DNA of 64,000 nucleotides. Origin: Lachnospiraceae bacterium. GTDB lineage: Bacteria; Bacillota; Clostridia; Lachnospirales; Lachnospiraceae. The notes under the pieces were generated by a model. The model was not told the origin of the DNA and searched no databases. It worked only from the letters and a program-made list of their open reading frames with translations. Of this stretch, positions 33,814-43,817 are shown in pieces. The stretch spans positions 1 through 64,000 of the forward strand of contig JAILMH010000068.1 in assembly GCA_024692715.1 (NCBI GenBank). Direction: 5' to 3'. Made by a program: the position numbers and the translations under genes. Each line of letters starts with the position of its first letter. The first letter of the stretch is position 1.

Positions 33814-35013
33814 TTATACGTTATTGTAGGATGCCACAATTCCAAGAACCTCCTGGCCGTATTCAGGGTAATTTTTCACAATATCATTGATTTCTTCTCT
33901 TGAAGCATCCCTGTTTTCTGTGTTGTACTGAATACGCTTTCTAAGTGACTGACGCCTTGTATTTAAGTCATGACGTATCTCTACCATTTCTTTAGGATTA
34001 TACAAAGCTTCACACTGTCTTGCCCATATTACAGGGTCTTTGAGATGCAGATCTCTCATCAGCTGCACAAGCCGGGATTTTTCCAGTGCCAGTTCAGAAT
34101 TTGCCCTAAGTATAAATTCCCTTGCCTTTTTCTCTTCCTGATAGGCACTCCAGTATTCCTCAAGCTCTACCGATGCATTGATGTGATATTTTCTGTACTC
34201 ATACTCGATCAGATTTGTCACGTTTACGTAGCGGATCTTAACGGTATTCTGCTTATTTATCAGCAACGCAATATAGGCATCTGCATATTTAAGCTTCCTG
34301 ACAGCGTCTGAATATGCCACATACTCACCTGTAAGCGCAAGTGCTGCAACTGCTCCCATCAAAATAAGCCCGATCCGTATATCAAGACCTCCGGCAGCAT
34401 AAAAAACTAAAAGTACTGCTGTTGCCGCAGATGCCGCTGCTATTGTAACCAGCAGGAAATTTTTAATATTTTTCATGGATGCTCTGAGTTCCGATTTCTG
34501 ATAGTTGTACACTGCTTTTTCACTTTCAAGTCTCTGCAGATCTCCGCGCACAAGCTCTCTGAAATCTTCATTTTTTTTAATAGTCTCAAGATCTCCGCTT
34601 ACTTCTGTTTCGTATCTCGCCAGCAGATTATATTCTTCTTCGCCTATCCTGCCCAGAGATTTACGATTTAGTGAGCTTTCATGATCGAGCTTAGTGATCC
34701 TTTCGGCTATCTTATTGATCCTCGCCCTGTATTCACCCGGAGCAGCCTCTATCTCTTCAATATCCTTAAGATAGTCCGTAACGAGTCTGTACTCCATTGA
34801 AGCCTTATCTATCTCAACGATAGACTCCTGCATCTGTTCGCAGCAGTTTTTTATATACCTATCCCTCTGTTCCTGATCTCTTACGTTAAGTGTGCTTCTT
34901 TTTATCGGCTCCACTTCGCGTATGATATCATCTTCATCGAGTTCCGGCACTGCCTCCTGCGAATCGATCTTTGTCTTCATGAAATTACTCTTTAACCACT
35001 TTATAACCCCCAT
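33814..35013 (-). CDS. Membrane-anchored coiled-coil protein of unknown function
   Basis: Long charged helical regions flanking two hydrophobic helices (FLLVTIAAASAATAVLLVFYAAG; IGLILMGAVAALALTGEYVAY). Confidence 0.75.
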   Translation of the reverse strand: MGVIKWLKSNFMKTKIDSQEAVPELDEDDIIREVEPIKRSTLNVRDQEQRDRYIKNCCEQMQESIVEIDKASMEYRLVTDYLKDIEEIEAAPGEYRARINKIAERITKLDHESSLNRKSLGRIGEEEYNLLARYETEVSGDLETIKKNEDFRELVRGDLQRLESEKAVYNYQKSELRASMKNIKNFLLVTIAAASAATAVLLVFYAAGGLDIRIGLILMGAVAALALTGEYVAYSDAVRKLKYADAYIALLINKQNTVKIRYVNVTNLIEYEYRKYHINASVELEEYWSAYQEEKKAREFILRANSELALEKSRLVQLMRDLHLKDPVIWARQCEALYNPKEMVEIRHDLNTRRQSLRKRIQYNTENRDASREEINDIVKNYPEYGQEVLGIVASYNNV

Positions 35014-35036
35014 ATTTACACCCCTCTCCGACTTAA

Positions 35037-35792
35037 TTAAACAGATTTTCTGTATGAATTCTCCATATCATTCAAAAGCTCTGTAAGTATGACCTGACTT
35101 CCCTCAACATCGCCATCCTCAACCTTTCGAAGATACCTTCTATATCTTCTCTCCATGACACTGTCCCCTGAAGCAGCGCTCTCCGGTATATTTCCCTCCG
35201 CCAGAGATCTGGCATCTGAAAATGCCTCTTTTGAGCTCTGGGAAGTGGGATTCAACTCAAATGCAAGTCTGAAACACTCAGCGGCTTCTGCAAAATAAAA
35301 AAGATCTGCATAGGCAACACCCTTATTGTGATAGATTCTTGCCGCTTCATTCGGCTTCTGTGTCTGATCGATTTCCTCAAGTGCCATATTGTACTCATTT
35401 ACAGCTTCGGAATACCTTCCGCCCTTCACCAGAAAGTCTCCCTTCATCCTGTGTTTTTCTGATTTACTCAGAGTACCTCTTGCTGCCAGCTGGCGCTTCA
35501 TATTCTCGATCTCTTCCTTACCCGCAAGGTTCGTCTCTGACATAAGTGCTTCCACAAAGTCTGTAAGACTTCCTCCGCTCATCACGCATTCCCTGAGCGT
35601 ATCTGCAAGTTCCGGGAGCATAAGTTCCTTTTCTATGAATTTGCAAAGGCTTTCATCGAGTATTGACGCATCCAGCATCATTATATTTTCTTTCACATAA
35701 TACGCGAGCTCTTCGGCAGAATATAGACCAATTCCTGCCGTATCGATGTAATATGGTATCGACGCCCGTCTTCCTACACAAAGATAAACCAT
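35037..35792 (-). CDS. TPR repeat protein
   Basis: GDFLVKGGRYSEAVNEYNMALEEI, ARIYHNKGVAYADLFYFAEAAECFRLAFELNP. Confidence 0.8.
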   Translation of the reverse strand: MVYLCVGRRASIPYYIDTAGIGLYSAEELAYYVKENIMMLDASILDESLCKFIEKELMLPELADTLRECVMSGGSLTDFVEALMSETNLAGKEEIENMKRQLAARGTLSKSEKHRMKGDFLVKGGRYSEAVNEYNMALEEIDQTQKPNEAARIYHNKGVAYADLFYFAEAAECFRLAFELNPTSQSSKEAFSDARSLAEGNIPESAASGDSVMERRYRRYLRKVEDGDVEGSQVILTELLNDMENSYRKSV

Positions 35793-35802
35793 ATTCTCTC
35801 CA

Positions 35803-37074
35803 TCAAAGCAATTCTATTATCTCTTCCCTTGACAATCCCGCTGACGGGAAGATTTCTCCAAAGCCAAGGTCCGTTACCTTACAATTCAGCCTGTTATTTT
35901 TAGGGCAGGTTATATCAAGTCTTATCCTCGTGGTCCGTTCAGGCCTTTCAGGGATCCAGTCGCAGCGTATCACCGCTTCTCTCTCGTTTTCATCCCCGCT
36001 GCCTCTTATCACAAGGCTTATCCGCCTGTCTGTTCCAAGCATGAATTCTGCAGATGCATTTATGTCATACCAGCTTATTCCGGGACTTATGAGCGGAATA
36101 ACATCCTCTCTCACCCCATCTGAAGCACGTATACCGATAAACGTATTTATCCTTGTCTCATCCATAAAGATGTATCTGCTTCCAAGCCTCGTCCAGCCCA
36201 CCAGATCAGCTGCCGCATAACATGCACCTTTTGTATACAAATTCTGACCAACAAATACTCTGGCTCTTGAACAGAGGAATCTAAAGGTCTTGTCCGCCCA
36301 TCTTCCTCCAAACGAGCTTCCCGTAAGATAAACAGCCGAGAGTCTCTTATTCATCATTTCATTCTCAGAGATCTCACGGAAGATATTGTCATATAGCTGG
36401 GCATTTTCCTCCACGAAAGGGACCATGTCCTCATAGCTTTTTTCTTCCGTCATAACTATCGCAGGTCTTGCAGATGAATCTATCACAAGGCTGCTCATCT
36501 TAAAATGTGCACGGTTATAGTCAAAGAGCATAACCCCGTCACGCCAGAGCTCTATCGGCTGATTGAGTGCGTAATAGAAAAAGCTTTCAGCATGACTTAT
36601 ATACCTGATCTCACTTATGTCCGAGCGGATATTTGTAAGTATCTTTTCAAATATCGCCGGAAGTGCAGGATCTATGCTCTCTGTCGTTATCACAAGAGAA
36701 GCTATTCCCTGGGGATTTATCTCTGATGGATAAAGCAGTACATATGTTACGAACATTCCAAGAAGCCTTACCGGATCAGCCTTTTCATTCTGATCGATGT
36801 AGATTGGCTTTCCTATTATCGCCCTATGCACGAGGCTGTCGATAAGCTCTACCCCATATTCCTGTGATGCACTTATTGCCTCTTCTCCGAAGCACCATCC
36901 CCCTTCCTCTCCGGGCATTTTACACGCAAGCGTTGGAATCTCGAATTTCTCCTCATCATCACCTGTACGATATGTGACTACATTCATATCACTTCTGTCA
37001 ATATAGGAAATTTCAGAAAAATCATCGCTCAGATCGATTCCCACCGCCATGTTTTTTTCAACTGTATTATTCAT
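35803..37074 (-). CDS. Actin/Hsp70-fold ATPase-like protein (DUF5716-like)
   Basis: N-terminal AVGIDLSDDFSEISYID (phosphate-1-like); AVYLTGSSFGGRWADKTFRFLCSRARVFVGQNLYTKGACYAA (adenosine-motif-like). Confidence 0.7.
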   Translation of the reverse strand: MNNTVEKNMAVGIDLSDDFSEISYIDRSDMNVVTYRTGDDEEKFEIPTLACKMPGEEGGWCFGEEAISASQEYGVELIDSLVHRAIIGKPIYIDQNEKADPVRLLGMFVTYVLLYPSEINPQGIASLVITTESIDPALPAIFEKILTNIRSDISEIRYISHAESFFYYALNQPIELWRDGVMLFDYNRAHFKMSSLVIDSSARPAIVMTEEKSYEDMVPFVEENAQLYDNIFREISENEMMNKRLSAVYLTGSSFGGRWADKTFRFLCSRARVFVGQNLYTKGACYAAADLVGWTRLGSRYIFMDETRINTFIGIRASDGVREDVIPLISPGISWYDINASAEFMLGTDRRISLVIRGSGDENEREAVIRCDWIPERPERTTRIRLDITCPKNNRLNCKVTDLGFGEIFPSAGLSREEIIELL

Positions 37075-37086
37075 ATTTTCTTCTTC

Positions 37087-40000
37087 CTAGATCAGCTCAA
37101 ATTTTTGATCAACTGCTCTCGATTTTAATATATAAAGCTTAAGAAGATCGTCCATACTCCGGCTATCGCCCATTGTCCGGCTCACAAGAATACTGTTCAG
37201 AATATCAAATCTCGTATCGCTGTTCCTGATCCTTTCATCATCGGAATCAAGGGTACGGCTGGTCGTAAGAGTTGAATTACTGCCATCTTCCTCTGTTATG
37301 TAATACTGAAGCTGCTCCCCATAGAAAAGTGTGAAGTTCTTTACATAGACTCCACCGACGATATTCTTCATAGCTTCAGTGTAGAAGCCTCCTTCATTAC
37401 CGTTTTCCTTGGTTATCATATAATGGATCACAGCTGTTTTATCCGGATTTGTCCTGTATTCTATAAATGTCCTGTCGTCATAAAGCATCATTTCCGGCAC
37501 AAAGCTTCTGAAACGTCTGAAAAATTCAAACACGATTCCCCTCTGAAGATAATGACGGACTGCCCTTGCAATGCCGCTTCTAAATACAGGATTTACCTCT
37601 TTTTTCTCAGAAAAATATCTAAGCATCGCAAGACTTACAACATCAATGAACTTTTCACCATGCTCAAGATGTGAGTATATTCTTTCAAAAATGTACTCCT
37701 TCGTAATACGATTCTTGACAAAATAATCATAGGCAGCATAAGTAAGCCATGCCTTTACAAGATCATCACTATTATCCGGCTTTGCATATAAAACAAAGAC
37801 GTCATCAGCTTCACCAACAAAGGAATGCGCAAAAAGCATCTGTGAGATCATCCTGCGCTCTATATGAACTGCTGAAATATTAAAGTTCTGAGCTGCCTTC
37901 CAGATATCTCTCAGGTGTCGTATCGAGCCGTTGTAGTTTTCCTCAAGAAACTCCAATATGACCTCATCATACTTACCATGACGGAATGCACTTATACAGA
38001 TATCCATAAGGAATTTATCTGAAGTATACTGATCATCTCTTATTATCCTGCTGGCAAGTCGTACTATCACCTTGCTGTCAAGTCTTGATGCCCCGTATTT
38101 TTTCAAAATGTCATAGGCACGCTGCTGCATTCCGCGGATCACAAGGTAATTTACATATTCAGCTCTCATCACTTCATTGAGTTTTCCCGGCTCTACGCTC
38201 AGCAGCGCTTCATCAAGCTCATCAAATCTGTCATTTTCGTAATAGAAGCTGATAAGATTGCGGCGCATCTCATTTCTCTCACTGTCCAATATTTCATCTG
38301 ACTGCGTAAGAGCCTTGACTGCATCTTTATTCTCCTCATTAACAGAAAGAAATCTGCGCCCTGTTCCGCATATATAGAAGGCAAATCCGACATTTGCAGT
38401 CTGATTGGCCCTTATAAATCTTTCAAACATGATAGGCTGCAGCATCTTCCTATCAACTATTCCTGTTCTGTCCGCTGTACGATTTCCATAAGAATCTTCA
38501 AAGAAAAGCTCATAGTTATTGCTGTATATATCGATGTAGGCCTCTCCGCCTATCATCATTCTGCGTCTTTCTTTTTTGAATCCAAATTCGATCACACTGA
38601 CCGAAACAATAGATTTGTTTTCAGTTGTGATATGATGCGTGAAACAGAGCATCGAAAGAGCATTCATAAGTTCAACGTGCCTGTCAAAGCCACGGATTGA
38701 AACAGCATACTCATATATACATGCGAGTTCCTCACTCATCTTTCCGGCAATTGCTTTTCTCAGCGCAAATTCAGCTATCTGCGGGTTGTAAGTCATTAAA
38801 TACTCTCCGGCAGTATTTCTGTGCTGGATAAGATTTAAGTAAAGCTGCGCGGTAAGATCATCCGGAATATCCGTACCCATCTTAAAGTACATGAGCACTG
38901 ACCTGTCGATCAAAGCTCTTGAATCTGTCGGGAACGAATACATATAGTACTCATATAATCTGGTTATCTTAAGCTGTCTTTCTACTGCAATACGGAACCA
39001 CTTAAAATGAATCGGGGATGCCGCATGATTTTGGATCAGGTGAGTACAGATCGCACTTAAGATCTCTTCGGAGCGATATTTTCCGTAATAGGCACCTGCA
39101 AGGCGCACGTAAGTACGCACATAACGACGAAGTCTGCTTCCATTGAAAGCTATTCGTGTCATGAGCTTTTCGTTGAAAATACCATGCTTTGCAGCCCACC
39201 ACAGTGCATTTACCTCAAACTCCGTCATTCCCTTCATTAACGAAGGGTCAGCAGATATAAGAAGCATAGCCTCTGAATATAAAAGCGGAGTTCTTCTTCC
39301 AGCCTCATATATCTTACGCATCATGGCCATTTTACGCTGAGGATCATTTTCCATTTCCTCATCCATATACATCAAAAGCCACAAAAGACGCGCAGAATTA
39401 TCCTTGGATTTATAAAATTCTTTAATCTTTTCCGCATTTTCTTTTACAAGGAATTCATCTCTTTTGAGCATAGACTCGAGATAGAGCAGGTATGCACGAT
39501 ATTCCGGCTTACGCTTTTCAATATCGAATTCGCTTTTAATGTGCCCGAGCACGGACTCTGCTTCCTGCATTCGAGACTGCAGTATCAGTACATGCACCAT
39601 ATACAGTCTTGAAGCGAGATCATGCGGATAAACAGAATTTATCTTTTCAATAAGTATCATTGATGATCTGCACCATGCATCAAGTCTGATCTCATGCATT
39701 CTGAACTTAAGAAATTCATTCATCAGTGATACTTCAAGCTTCTGACGGGCAAGTATCCTGTCAGGTCGTTCTCCCTGAACGTGGCAGACGATCCGTATCT
39801 TTTCGTAATAATGATTACCTGAAATAGTAACCGTTCCGACATTGGTTCCGCCATGCATTGCCCCTTCGATCAGCAATATCTTGAGATAGCATACATCTCC
39901 GTCAAAATTTTCCTCTGTGATAAAAGTTTTTCCGACAACTGCAAAATCAGCATCAGAGCTCACTCTGAGACTGACATCTCCCCAGCCGCTCTTTTTAAGT

Positions 40001-40641
40001 ATCAGAGAAATGCATTCATCTTCATCTCCAATTTCCTCTTCTACTTCTGTGCGGTCTACGGTATACATCACAGGAGCTTTCTTTCTCACAGAAACCAGAA
40101 ACTCCTCCAGATTCTCTCTCGAGCCCGGAAGCGTACTGAAAGCGCGGTAAAAATTCTTATACTGCTCGTCAGCTCCTCTGAAAACAGTATTAAACTCAGG
40201 ACTGTAAAAAATCTTTACAGCCTCATCAAAATCTGCCCGTGCCAAATTTGTAAAATGGAATAAATTCTTGATCTTTCCCTGTGAGGAAAGCGCGAAATGT
40301 TTCTGAATATTAAAAACAAAGGGAAGATGATACTCTCCGGCATCACTTACCACGTCGATCTCTCCCTTTATAATGTCGCCCTCTTCAAGTCCTGTTGTAT
40401 CAAAGGTATAATGAACTTCAACTTCTGATGCCGAAAAGCTGGCTCTGTCAAGCTCAAGACGTGGCTCGCTTGTATAGAGAGTTCCGTTGCATCTTCGCTG
40501 TACAGATGATAATATGCGGAATTTTCCGCTTATCTTCTGTCCCTCCTCAGCTTCACGTTCAATACGCTTTTCCGGAAATGTAAGCGTTCCCACATCGTAT
40601 TCGAATCTCCCATTGAGTATATCGGCGATATGGTTTTCCAT
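37087..40641 (-). CDS. Giant helical-solenoid protein with N-terminal beta-rich domains (DUF5717-like)
   Basis: ~1184 aa; beta-rich N-terminus, TPR-like helical repeats; start placed at MENHIADIL because GGGAGGA lies upstream of it inside the longer track ORF. Confidence 0.7.
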   Translation of the reverse strand: MENHIADILNGRFEYDVGTLTFPEKRIEREAEEGQKISGKFRILSSVQRRCNGTLYTSEPRLELDRASFSASEVEVHYTFDTTGLEEGDIIKGEIDVVSDAGEYHLPFVFNIQKHFALSSQGKIKNLFHFTNLARADFDEAVKIFYSPEFNTVFRGADEQYKNFYRAFSTLPGSRENLEEFLVSVRKKAPVMYTVDRTEVEEEIGDEDECISLILKKSGWGDVSLRVSSDADFAVVGKTFITEENFDGDVCYLKILLIEGAMHGGTNVGTVTISGNHYYEKIRIVCHVQGERPDRILARQKLEVSLMNEFLKFRMHEIRLDAWCRSSMILIEKINSVYPHDLASRLYMVHVLILQSRMQEAESVLGHIKSEFDIEKRKPEYRAYLLYLESMLKRDEFLVKENAEKIKEFYKSKDNSARLLWLLMYMDEEMENDPQRKMAMMRKIYEAGRRTPLLYSEAMLLISADPSLMKGMTEFEVNALWWAAKHGIFNEKLMTRIAFNGSRLRRYVRTYVRLAGAYYGKYRSEEILSAICTHLIQNHAASPIHFKWFRIAVERQLKITRLYEYYMYSFPTDSRALIDRSVLMYFKMGTDIPDDLTAQLYLNLIQHRNTAGEYLMTYNPQIAEFALRKAIAGKMSEELACIYEYAVSIRGFDRHVELMNALSMLCFTHHITTENKSIVSVSVIEFGFKKERRRMMIGGEAYIDIYSNNYELFFEDSYGNRTADRTGIVDRKMLQPIMFERFIRANQTANVGFAFYICGTGRRFLSVNEENKDAVKALTQSDEILDSERNEMRRNLISFYYENDRFDELDEALLSVEPGKLNEVMRAEYVNYLVIRGMQQRAYDILKKYGASRLDSKVIVRLASRIIRDDQYTSDKFLMDICISAFRHGKYDEVILEFLEENYNGSIRHLRDIWKAAQNFNISAVHIERRMISQMLFAHSFVGEADDVFVLYAKPDNSDDLVKAWLTYAAYDYFVKNRITKEYIFERIYSHLEHGEKFIDVVSLAMLRYFSEKKEVNPVFRSGIARAVRHYLQRGIVFEFFRRFRSFVPEMMLYDDRTFIEYRTNPDKTAVIHYMITKENGNEGGFYTEAMKNIVGGVYVKNFTLFYGEQLQYYITEEDGSNSTLTTSRTLDSDDERIRNSDTRFDILNSILVSRTMGDSRSMDDLLKLYILKSRAVDQKFELI

Positions 40642-40759
40642 CCTTTTTCTGTCCTCCCTGAACATAATTGCATTTTTAATTTTAATGCACTATCATAAAT
40701 GATTATATCACCGGCTATGCGCTTATAGCAATGCAAACGCAACAGGAAAGGGGCTTTTA

Positions 40760-41906: not shown

Positions 41907-43817
41907 TCACTCTATAACACTTATTTCATTTGTCGAAACAGATTCTGTTTCCGCTCCTGCACTTGTTGTATTCTCAACAACCAGCTCAGAAACATCATTT
42001 GATGATTCAGATGAACTGCTGCCTGACGGAACTGCAGCTGCATCCTCGATCGGTATGACGTCATCATCATATATGATATCCGAGCTTACCGACACAGCTT
42101 TCTTTCCATCTTCTTCATCCTGTTCATCATACTCTATGTCATATTTCTCACTCTTCTTGATCTTAAGATCTGATACAAGCAGTCCTTCATAAGAGGTACC
42201 AGTCTCATCGATCAGGAAGTTAATGGTATACTTATATACTTTTGCATCCCACTCGTCTTCATCATCCTTCTTACCGTATACAAAAGTACCCTTGACCTTG
42301 AGCTTTCTTCCCTTCTGCTCAATATCCGTAACTGATTCCTTAGCTATGAATATATCATTTTCAGAAAGTGATTCCTGTGTTATCTCTTTAAGATACAACG
42401 ATGTTCCATACAGATAAGCCGTATCAAGCGTCTCATTGCTGATATCTCCACTGAACTTTTCAGCGTTCACAAACGGAAGTACAGCAGCTGCTGCTTTCGA
42501 TATCTTTTCTGCATTTGAAGAACTCATTTCGTATGCAGGAACAACCTCTTCACTTACGGTCTTCTTCTTTTTCTTCTTTTTCTTTTTTTCAGATTCCTTG
42601 ACTGTTGTATCAGCCTTTACATTTTCTTTGGCATTTGCCGAAGCATGTTCTGTAGTATTGTTTTCTGATGAAGATGCCTTATCTACCGATACTGTAACTT
42701 CATTATCTGATATCTCCACCACAGTATTGTCAGAGATAACATAGTCATTTACAGACTGAAGTCCTGTATTATCAGAAATATTCAGACTTACAGAGCCCGG
42801 AACTGCTTCATTGCTCATATTATTATGAACCGCTGTACCAACTCCGACACCTGTTCCTGCTACAGCCACCGCTACAGCTACTGCTACGGATTTTGCGGCA
42901 CCTCCTGCCACTAATCCTCCGGCTGCGATCGAACTGCCTGCTGCCCCTGCAGCTGCTGTCGTCGCCGCTCCTGCCGCTGCTGTCGTTACAGCTGTTGTCG
43001 CTGCTGTTCCTGCAGAAACACTGGCTGCTGTTCCTGAACCGCCGGTAGCTGCTGCCGCTGTTCCGGCTGCTGTTCCGGCTGCTGTTCCGGCTGCTATCGC
43101 CGAACCTGCTGCTATTCCAAGCTTACCGCATATTGCCGCATATGATGCCGCTGCCACAGGCGCTGCCATAACTGTCTCATCTGACATCACACTTATGGCA
43201 CCGATTATCAGCGGAGCAGTGATCATTACTGCTCCAGCCTTGCCGCCGCTCACACCTGATGTTTCTTCGAGCCTCTTTTTCAAAAACTTTCTGGCATAGT
43301 TCAGACGACTTTTAACTGTTCCAACCGAACATTCCATAACATCTGCAATGTCCTCTATTGAAATACCGTCATAATAATGTGCCACAAGAGTCGTTCTCTG
43401 AGCCTCCGGAAGCTCTTCTATAAGCTTCTTGAGCTCAGCAGCCCGCTCCTTATCCTCAGCCGAAAGATCCGGCTGGGCACTTTTATCCGTACTAACCATG
43501 TTTCCGAAAACAGCATCGCTTTTTTCATCATCAAGGAGTATTTCATTTTTCTTTCGGAAAATTTTCATTCCTTGTCTATAGGTAATCGCTCCGAGCCACG
43601 CAAATATATTTTCAGGCTTATCAAGTGAATCTATCGATTTATACGCCTCTATGTACACAGTCTGAAGCAAGTCCATAGCATCGTCCTCATCCTTCATGAT
43701 CTGACGCGCTCTGAACAGCACATAACTGTAAGTACCGTTATAGACGAGATTAAAACCCTCTTCCTCGCCATTTTTCATGCGTACGACTGCCTGAATCAAA
43801 TCTTTGTCAGCTGCCAT
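41907..43817 (-). CDS. ECF-type sigma-70 factor with Ala/Gly-rich hydrophobic segment and long C-terminal extension
   Basis: Sigma2 (FNLVYNGTYSYVLFRARQIMKDEDDAMDLLQTVYIEAYKSIDSL) and sigma4 (LPEAQRTTLVAHYYDGISIEDIADVMECSVGTVKSRLNYARKFLKKRL), then ~450 aa C-terminal. Confidence 0.9.
   Translation of the reverse strand: MAADKDLIQAVVRMKNGEEEGFNLVYNGTYSYVLFRARQIMKDEDDAMDLLQTVYIEAYKSIDSLDKPENIFAWLGAITYRQGMKIFRKKNEILLDDEKSDAVFGNMVSTDKSAQPDLSAEDKERAAELKKLIEELPEAQRTTLVAHYYDGISIEDIADVMECSVGTVKSRLNYARKFLKKRLEETSGVSGGKAGAVMITAPLIIGAISVMSDETVMAAPVAAASYAAICGKLGIAAGSAIAAGTAAGTAAGTAAAATGGSGTAASVSAGTAATTAVTTAAAGAATTAAAGAAGSSIAAGGLVAGGAAKSVAVAVAVAVAGTGVGVGTAVHNNMSNEAVPGSVSLNISDNTGLQSVNDYVISDNTVVEISDNEVTVSVDKASSSENNTTEHASANAKENVKADTTVKESEKKKKKKKKKTVSEEVVPAYEMSSSNAEKISKAAAAVLPFVNAEKFSGDISNETLDTAYLYGTSLYLKEITQESLSENDIFIAKESVTDIEQKGRKLKVKGTFVYGKKDDEDEWDAKVYKYTINFLIDETGTSYEGLLVSDLKIKKSEKYDIEYDEQDEEDGKKAVSVSSDIIYDDDVIPIEDAAAVPSGSSSSESSNDVSELVVENTTSAGAETESVSTNEISVIE
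43053..43098. repeat. 12-bp tandem repeat within sigma-factor gene
   Basis: CTGTTCCGGCTG unit repeated three times in frame (AGTAAGTAAGTA). Confidence 0.8.

Follow-up and report, generated by a model that had tools for sequence, protein, structure and literature searches.

Does a set of bacterial genes that looks like an ATP-driven Hsp70/actin-type machine still contain an ATPase? The question is raised by four adjacent genes, here named A to D, in a Lachnospiraceae bacterium (GenBank assembly GCA_024692715.1, contig JAILMH010000068.1, positions 1 to 64,000; these 64,000 nucleotides are referred to below as the window). An initial annotation, made from the sequence alone, described their products as a giant solenoid protein, an actin/Hsp70-fold ATPase, a tetratricopeptide repeat (TPR) protein, and a membrane coiled-coil protein, which together would form an Hsp70/actin-like machine. 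Our analysis indicates that B descends from one of the four Hsp70s (Hsp70-1 to Hsp70-4) of a longer operon, also encoding a GrpE protein, that other families in the order carry. We give a probability of about 0.5 to the reading that the cassette is a noncatalytic remnant of this dedicated multi-Hsp70 operon and that A, B, and C work as an ATP-independent holdase/adaptor.

Hsp70 descent and degeneration of gene B

Gene B encodes a protein of the DUF5716 family (PF18980, DUF5716_C; 297.9 bits, E 8.1e-89, gathering threshold 34.7 bits). Both halves of A belong to DUF5717, with PF18984 covering residues 9-880 (806.5 bits, E 3e-242) and PF18983 residues 883-1189 (327.3 bits, E 1e-97), each above the membership threshold of 25 bits. 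These scores bear out the two family names first proposed.

The AlphaFold model of B was obtained at a predicted local distance difference test score (pLDDT) of 93.5 and a predicted template modeling score (pTM) of 0.90. It contains the actin-like nucleotide-binding domain (NBD) of an Hsp70 without subdomain IIB, followed by the beta part of the substrate-binding domain (SBD-beta), after which the chain stops; there is no lid. In a Foldseek search, the best PDB match was a lid-less DnaK (5obv, E 2.9e-19), and Ssz1 (6sr6) was also among the matches. The Hsp70/actin fold that the initial annotation had assigned to this gene is thus upheld by structure prediction.

The kinship is visible solely through profiles and fold comparison. 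A single-sequence phmmer search of the PDB with B gave no match, and PF00012 (HSP70) did not match the window's B up to an E value of 1. When a B profile built from the window's family only was compared with the alignment of the operon Hsp70s, hhalign returned an E value of 2.8e-19, collinear over residues 6-410. Against the PDB, this profile reached DnaK at 1.3e-3 and a wider B profile at 9e-15. One operon Hsp70-2 (locus L089, ~520 amino acids) was recognized by PF18980 at 93.5 bits and also by HSP70 at 63.6 bits. In a quick tree of 104 proteins, with some long branches, all B proteins grouped together (SH-aLRT 100), the earliest branch within this clade being the Hsp70-2 of G499, a genome with the whole operon, and B plus Hsp70-2 were split from Hsp70-1, -3, -4, and DnaK at a support of 100. 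Profiles, tree, and predicted structure all make B a degenerate Hsp70 that stems from the Hsp70-2 lineage rather than a generic actin-like ATPase.

We then compared the catalytic residues, in DnaK numbering, in 44 B proteins of the window's family. Thr-11, Lys-70, Glu-171, Asp-194, Gly-196 to Gly-198, Thr-199, and Asp-201 were present in 100% of the Hsp70-1, -3, -4, and DnaK sequences. In Hsp70-2, position 70 was mostly Ile, Leu, Val, or Ala, position 199 mostly Glu, Gly, Gln, or Ala, and position 201 was Arg in 94%. The catalytic positions of B carried varying residues (mostly Leu, Tyr, Phe, or Val at position 70 and His, Tyr, or Arg at position 171), with Asp-194 kept in 63%. Because Hsp70-2 has already lost Lys-70 and Asp-201, the inactivation predates the window's family. 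With phosphate-1, Lys-70, Glu-171, and phosphate-2 all lost, B would not be expected to run a canonical ATPase cycle; the assignment of the fold stands, whereas the terms "ATPase" and "machine" in the initial annotation are mistaken or overstated.

The degeneration also extends to the architecture. The phosphate-2 and adenosine motifs were separated by 71 residues (60-78) in 44 of 44 B proteins, the median being 144 residues for Hsp70-2 and 143 for DnaK. Subdomain IIB, part of the face to which GrpE binds, occupies this interval in DnaK, and the ~72 residues gone from B correspond to it. Of the hallmarks of a functional Hsp70 that we looked for, B has the fold, an actin-like NBD with SBD-beta; the catalytic residues, subdomain IIB with the SBD-alpha lid, and a PF00012 score above threshold were not found.

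The parent operon and the family-wide cassette

In other families of the order, the full operon has the order A, Hsp70-1, long GrpE, Hsp70-2 (= B), Hsp70-3, Hsp70-4 (fused to VWA), C, D. Its A is often split into an N-terminal open reading frame (ORF), A_N, and a C-terminal one, A_C, and is otherwise fused. Hsp70-1 (560 amino acids), Hsp70-3 (545), and Hsp70-4 (690) are intact, and Hsp70-2 has ~520 amino acids. The GrpE protein, of 560-645 amino acids, has a long N-terminal extension and its GrpE domain at the C terminus (L089:3873-5804 and orthologues), and the operon ends with a TPR protein of 380-390 amino acids, followed in several cases by a coiled-coil protein with two transmembrane segments. 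The long GrpE was found in 53 loci in a scan of named genomes; outside the order, the matches of a class-wide profile search were all short, scored low, and lay at the GrpE end of the protein (its C terminus). Carriers include the cultured Defluviitalea phaphyphila Alg1 (L115) and Petrocella sp. FN5 (L161), both placed by NCBI in the order Lachnospirales. Judged from its genes, the full operon outside the window's family is apparently a working multi-Hsp70 system.

The full and reduced loci are orthologous, since the same aminotransferase gene lies divergent from A in many loci of both forms. C has a conserved N-terminal domain of ~100 amino acids and the TPR-like repeats noted at the outset (Pfam TPR_2). 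It aligned with the 380-390-amino acid operon protein over the N-terminal domain and first TPRs (hhalign 99.8%, E 1.7e-30), which identifies it at the profile level as the orthologue of the TPR protein that comes after Hsp70-4. D matched no Pfam family. Hydropathy placed two adjacent hydrophobic segments (~183-234) between long coiled-coil regions predicted by eye, in agreement with the hairpin first described, and the alignment with the final protein of the full operon (hhalign 100%, E 8.8e-46) likewise makes D the orthologue of its last gene. The idea that the N-terminal region of the long GrpE gave rise to C or D was rejected (hhalign probability 0.1% for both).

GrpE-domain genes numbered one in the window-family genomes (a second match in G180 was below threshold) and two in 15 of 15 operon carriers. 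The family also has DnaK and, in some genomes, other Hsp70s of different length, three of which grouped in the tree with DnaK/other Hsp70 and not with Hsp70-1, -3, or -4. We dropped the possibility that the missing genes had moved elsewhere in the family genomes, given the single GrpE and the deviating lengths of the extra Hsp70s. As far as gene content and alignment can tell, A, B, C, and in some genomes D were retained in the window's family, and GrpE and three Hsp70s that appear intact in the full operon disappeared. The loss of the dedicated exchange factor coincides with the loss of its predicted docking subdomain IIB, which is suggestive.

Several operons showed features of their own. 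The C-terminal VWA domain of Hsp70-4 (L106:12501-14573, tested in L106; Hsp70-4 is also present at L113, L115, and L161) is an unusual Hsp70 fusion. G499 (L086/L108/L164) is intermediate, with a complete operon, a short GrpE protein of 279 amino acids, and the Hsp70-2 closest to DUF5716; its Hsp70-4 and C are each present as two ORFs, through a frameshift or a true split. The most divergent Hsp70-2 proteins (412-472 amino acids; L098, L099, L100, and L161-L163) belong to f142/Vallitaleaceae, which suggests that Hsp70-2 degenerated further, and independently, in a second family. In four operons from metagenome-assembled genomes (L130, L132, L136, and L140), additional short ORFs are interspersed among the Hsp70 genes.

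To follow the inheritance of the reduced form, we used 200 genomes from 199 genera of the window's family (Lachnospiraceae, >200 genera). DUF5716 and DUF5717 were each present in 195 of 200, nearly always as a single copy, and in 162 of the 165 genomes that were at least 90% complete. Both A and B were found in 194 genomes, neither in 4, A only in 1, and B only in 1 (Fisher p 4e-7); the two genomes with a single partner are 67-68% complete. Three good genomes lacked A and B (G029, G091, and G098). C was also missing from G091 and G098, and the search for C in G029 gave only a weak generic TPR match. A and B were adjacent and on the same strand in 53/53 fetched loci and B and C in 52/52, with C not found in one further locus. 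D was found in 8 of 25 family genomes, adjoining C in the loci fetched. The expectation that all four genes travel together therefore holds for A-B-C, which is contiguous, but not for D: with D patchy and the A-B and B-C pairs constant, the unit is A-B-C and D is optional.

Beyond the family, a phylum-wide sample of 299 genomes contained DUF5716 in only 4, all of them members of the window's family, and the DUF5717 model behaved likewise; other phyla, covered by 14 control genomes, gave no match. DUF5717_N was found in 94 of 196 genomes sampled across the order, about a quarter of these in the window's family. One genome classified in a different family (G653, locus L105) of the order carries an A-B-C locus of the window-family type that is nested inside the family in the tree, through either contamination of a metagenome-assembled genome or horizontal transfer.

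Gene A and the layout of the locus

The AlphaFold model of A (pLDDT 86) has two N-terminal immunoglobulin (Ig)-like beta domains and then a superhelix of the TPR type into which two more beta domains are inserted, the arrangement of the domains being uncertain at a pTM of 0.57. This agrees with the beta-rich N terminus and TPR-like helices of the initial annotation. Foldseek returned Ig-type arrays (ciliary central apparatus and titin) and the TPR scaffolds Ski3, Naa15, and Ctr9, all with low template modeling scores, and for the modeled A such matches indicate a fold class, not a homologue. Hydropathy revealed no transmembrane segments in A, B, or C. The true start of A is probably Met-9 (40641), 8 codons downstream of the longest-ORF start (40641-40665), because an AGGGAGG-type site lies upstream and the N termini of homologues begin there.

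The four ORFs lie on one strand as first reported, with intergenic gaps of 12 (A-B), 10 (B-C), and 23 bp (C-D) (Table 1). The promoter-like site that had been pointed out ranks first among such sites upstream of A, but sites of this kind are not rare in the region (26 observed versus 18.7 +/- 4.7 in shuffles). An NCBIfam scan of A to D added no confident assignment. We dropped a defence-system identity for the cassette, as none of the four proteins matched the PADLOC anti-phage defence models at E <= 0.001. Elsewhere in the window (41907-43817, minus strand), a gene encodes a 636-amino acid extracytoplasmic function-type sigma factor with a long C-terminal extension, Ala/Gly-rich and then Ser/Glu/Lys-rich.

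Table 1. Positions of the cassette genes, of segments within B, and of the promoter-like site in the window
Feature	Position	Strand	Basis
Gene A, DUF5717 protein, 1192 amino acids	37087..40665	-	Pfam, AlphaFold, Foldseek
Gene B, DUF5716 protein, 423 amino acids, pseudo-Hsp70	35803..37074	-	Pfam, AlphaFold, Foldseek, profile comparison
Gene C, TPR protein, 251 amino acids	35037..35792	-	TPR_2, hhalign
Gene D, two-transmembrane coiled-coil protein, 399 amino acids	33814..35013	-	Hydropathy, hhalign
B residues 12-19, degenerate phosphate-1 GIDLSDDF (DnaK GIDLGTTN)	37018..37041	-	Alignment columns
B residues 185-192, degenerate phosphate-2 DYNRAHFK (DnaK DLGGGTFD)	36499..36522	-	Alignment columns
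B residues 252-259, adenosine-motif position GSSFGGRW (family consensus GxGFExxW), conserved family-wide	36298..36321	-	Alignment
B residues 300-421, SBD-beta-like beta sandwich, conserved PxRPxxTTRL and DxGFGExFP	35812..36177	-	AlphaFold, alignment, hhalign
Promoter-like TTGCTA-18-TATAAT, extended -10 (TG), upstream of A	40702..40731	-	Consensus match only

Function of the cassette and comparison with known systems

If the cassette works as an ATP-independent holdase/adaptor, A, B, and C would form one complex in which the TPR/Ig scaffolds A and C hold B. B would act without an ATP/nucleotide-exchange cycle, its permanently open SBD-beta offering a constant binding site to a partner or to client peptides, and the complex would pass clients on, either to the housekeeping DnaK/GrpE system or to a site of membrane assembly, with D, where present, as a membrane tether. 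Proteostasis was one of the roles first suggested, in line with this reading. We propose more tentatively, at somewhat less than even odds, that the whole family swapped an ATP-driven multi-Hsp70/GrpE machine for its catalytically inactive subunit and the scaffolds, on which it now depends, so that B would be a permanent docking module in a core process, convergent with Ssz1 and the ribosome-associated complex (RAC). Some observations weigh against a nucleotide-independent adaptor. The adenine-side pocket of B is conserved (Gly-6, Gly-341, and the GA motif 100%; Asp-8 88%), and B may still bind nucleotide, with unconventional chemistry. IIB and GrpE were each lost only once on the tree, the pTM of A is only 0.57, and a scan of A, C, D, and the ancestral operon proteins found no J-domain protein in the reduced or full operon.

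The conserved pocket, together with the high-confidence Hsp70/actin fold, could also mean that B still hydrolyzes ATP through an altered chemistry and that the cassette is an ATP-driven machine. We consider this unlikely, as the phosphate-1 threonines, Lys-70, Glu-171, the phosphate-2 GGGT, and Asp-201 are replaced by varying residues and neither subdomain IIB nor the dedicated GrpE has been kept. A more specific form of the adaptor reading, in which the complex associates with ribosomes or nascent chains as a counterpart of RAC, with B as Ssz1 and A or C as the stabilizing partner, is doubtful. Its appeal lies in the reduced architecture shared with Ssz1 (no lid and no hydrolysis; PMC7083937), the presence of Ssz1/RAC among the PDB matches, a near-universal single-copy distribution that suits a housekeeping role, and the resemblance of the A superhelix to large TPR scaffolds, including the ribosome-bound Naa15. 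However, neither a J-domain nor a ribosome-binding motif was found, Ssz1 is one of many Hsp70 matches, and D is a membrane protein.

That same membrane protein, with its conserved two-transmembrane hairpin and its orthology to the final gene of the ancestral operon, would be the working end of an envelope or surface-assembly apparatus to which A-B-C deliver, or for which they hold, secreted or membrane proteins. The chances of this are slim: D is absent from 17 of 25 family genomes, complete ones included, most of which keep A-B-C; the other three proteins lack transmembrane segments; and no envelope genes lie nearby. Nothing was found in support of the surface assembly or envelope remodeling first put forward. 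A cytoskeletal function, with actin-like filaments, would fit the superfold common to MreB and ParM and the weak MreB_Mbl matches of the operon Hsp70s, but it is very improbable in view of the clear SBD-beta and Hsp70 descent, and the loss of the phosphate loops and IIB argues against nucleotide-driven polymerization. It is just as hard to regard the cassette as a decaying relic under weak selection. Pairwise identity between genera is low (~25-30%) and three good genomes have lost the genes, yet 162 of 165 good genomes keep them in an order constant in 53/53 loci, the frames are intact among the matches listed, and the G/W/DxGFG positions are invariant.

Searches of the literature on essentiality in the family yielded no usable evidence. 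A search of 5.4 million open-access papers found no paper on DUF5716/DUF5717, apart from one text match in an apparently unrelated cancer paper, and none matching the multi-Hsp70/GrpE operon; this absence is weak evidence because only open-access sources were covered. A recent survey of DnaK duplication names neither Lachnospiraceae nor Clostridia (PMC11019930). The Hsp70 fold is known, and neither the pseudo-Hsp70/scaffold unit nor its parent operon seems to have been described. These results indicate what three functionally unassigned Pfam families are and how they arose, and place DUF5716/DUF5717 among the most constant family-restricted genes of the Lachnospiraceae, dominant gut bacteria. 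The locus is a natural experiment, in which an Hsp70 system sheds its ATPases, exchange factor, and docking subdomain and yet stays conserved, and culturable relatives with the complete operon make this reduction testable.

Among known proteins, yeast Ssz1 binds but does not hydrolyze ATP, has no lid, and is stabilized by its partner (PMC7083937). B resembles it as an Hsp70 derivative with an SBD-beta, no lid, and, by sequence and model, no hydrolysis. The two differ in that Ssz1 binds ATP and has the J-protein Zuo1 as its partner, whereas B lacks IIB and is encoded beside TPR/Ig scaffolds with no J-protein seen. We infer that B and Ssz1 are of independent origin; as no J-domain partner was found, the cassette is not a member of RAC and the likeness is one of architecture only. 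With DnaK/Hsp70 (PF00012), B shares NBD lobes IA, IB, and IIA and the collinear SBD-beta fold, but not the catalytic residues, IIB, the SBD-alpha lid, a PF00012 match, or a dedicated nucleotide exchange factor. Another close system is the Lachnospirales multi-Hsp70/GrpE operon, an orthologous locus with the orthologues of A, B, C, and D in the same order, from which the window form differs by lacking Hsp70-1, the long GrpE, Hsp70-3, and the VWA-fused Hsp70-4. The Pfam entries for DUF5716_C and DUF5717 give no function, whereas the present comparison describes DUF5716 as an Hsp70 derivative and DUF5717 as a partner in the multi-Hsp70 operon.

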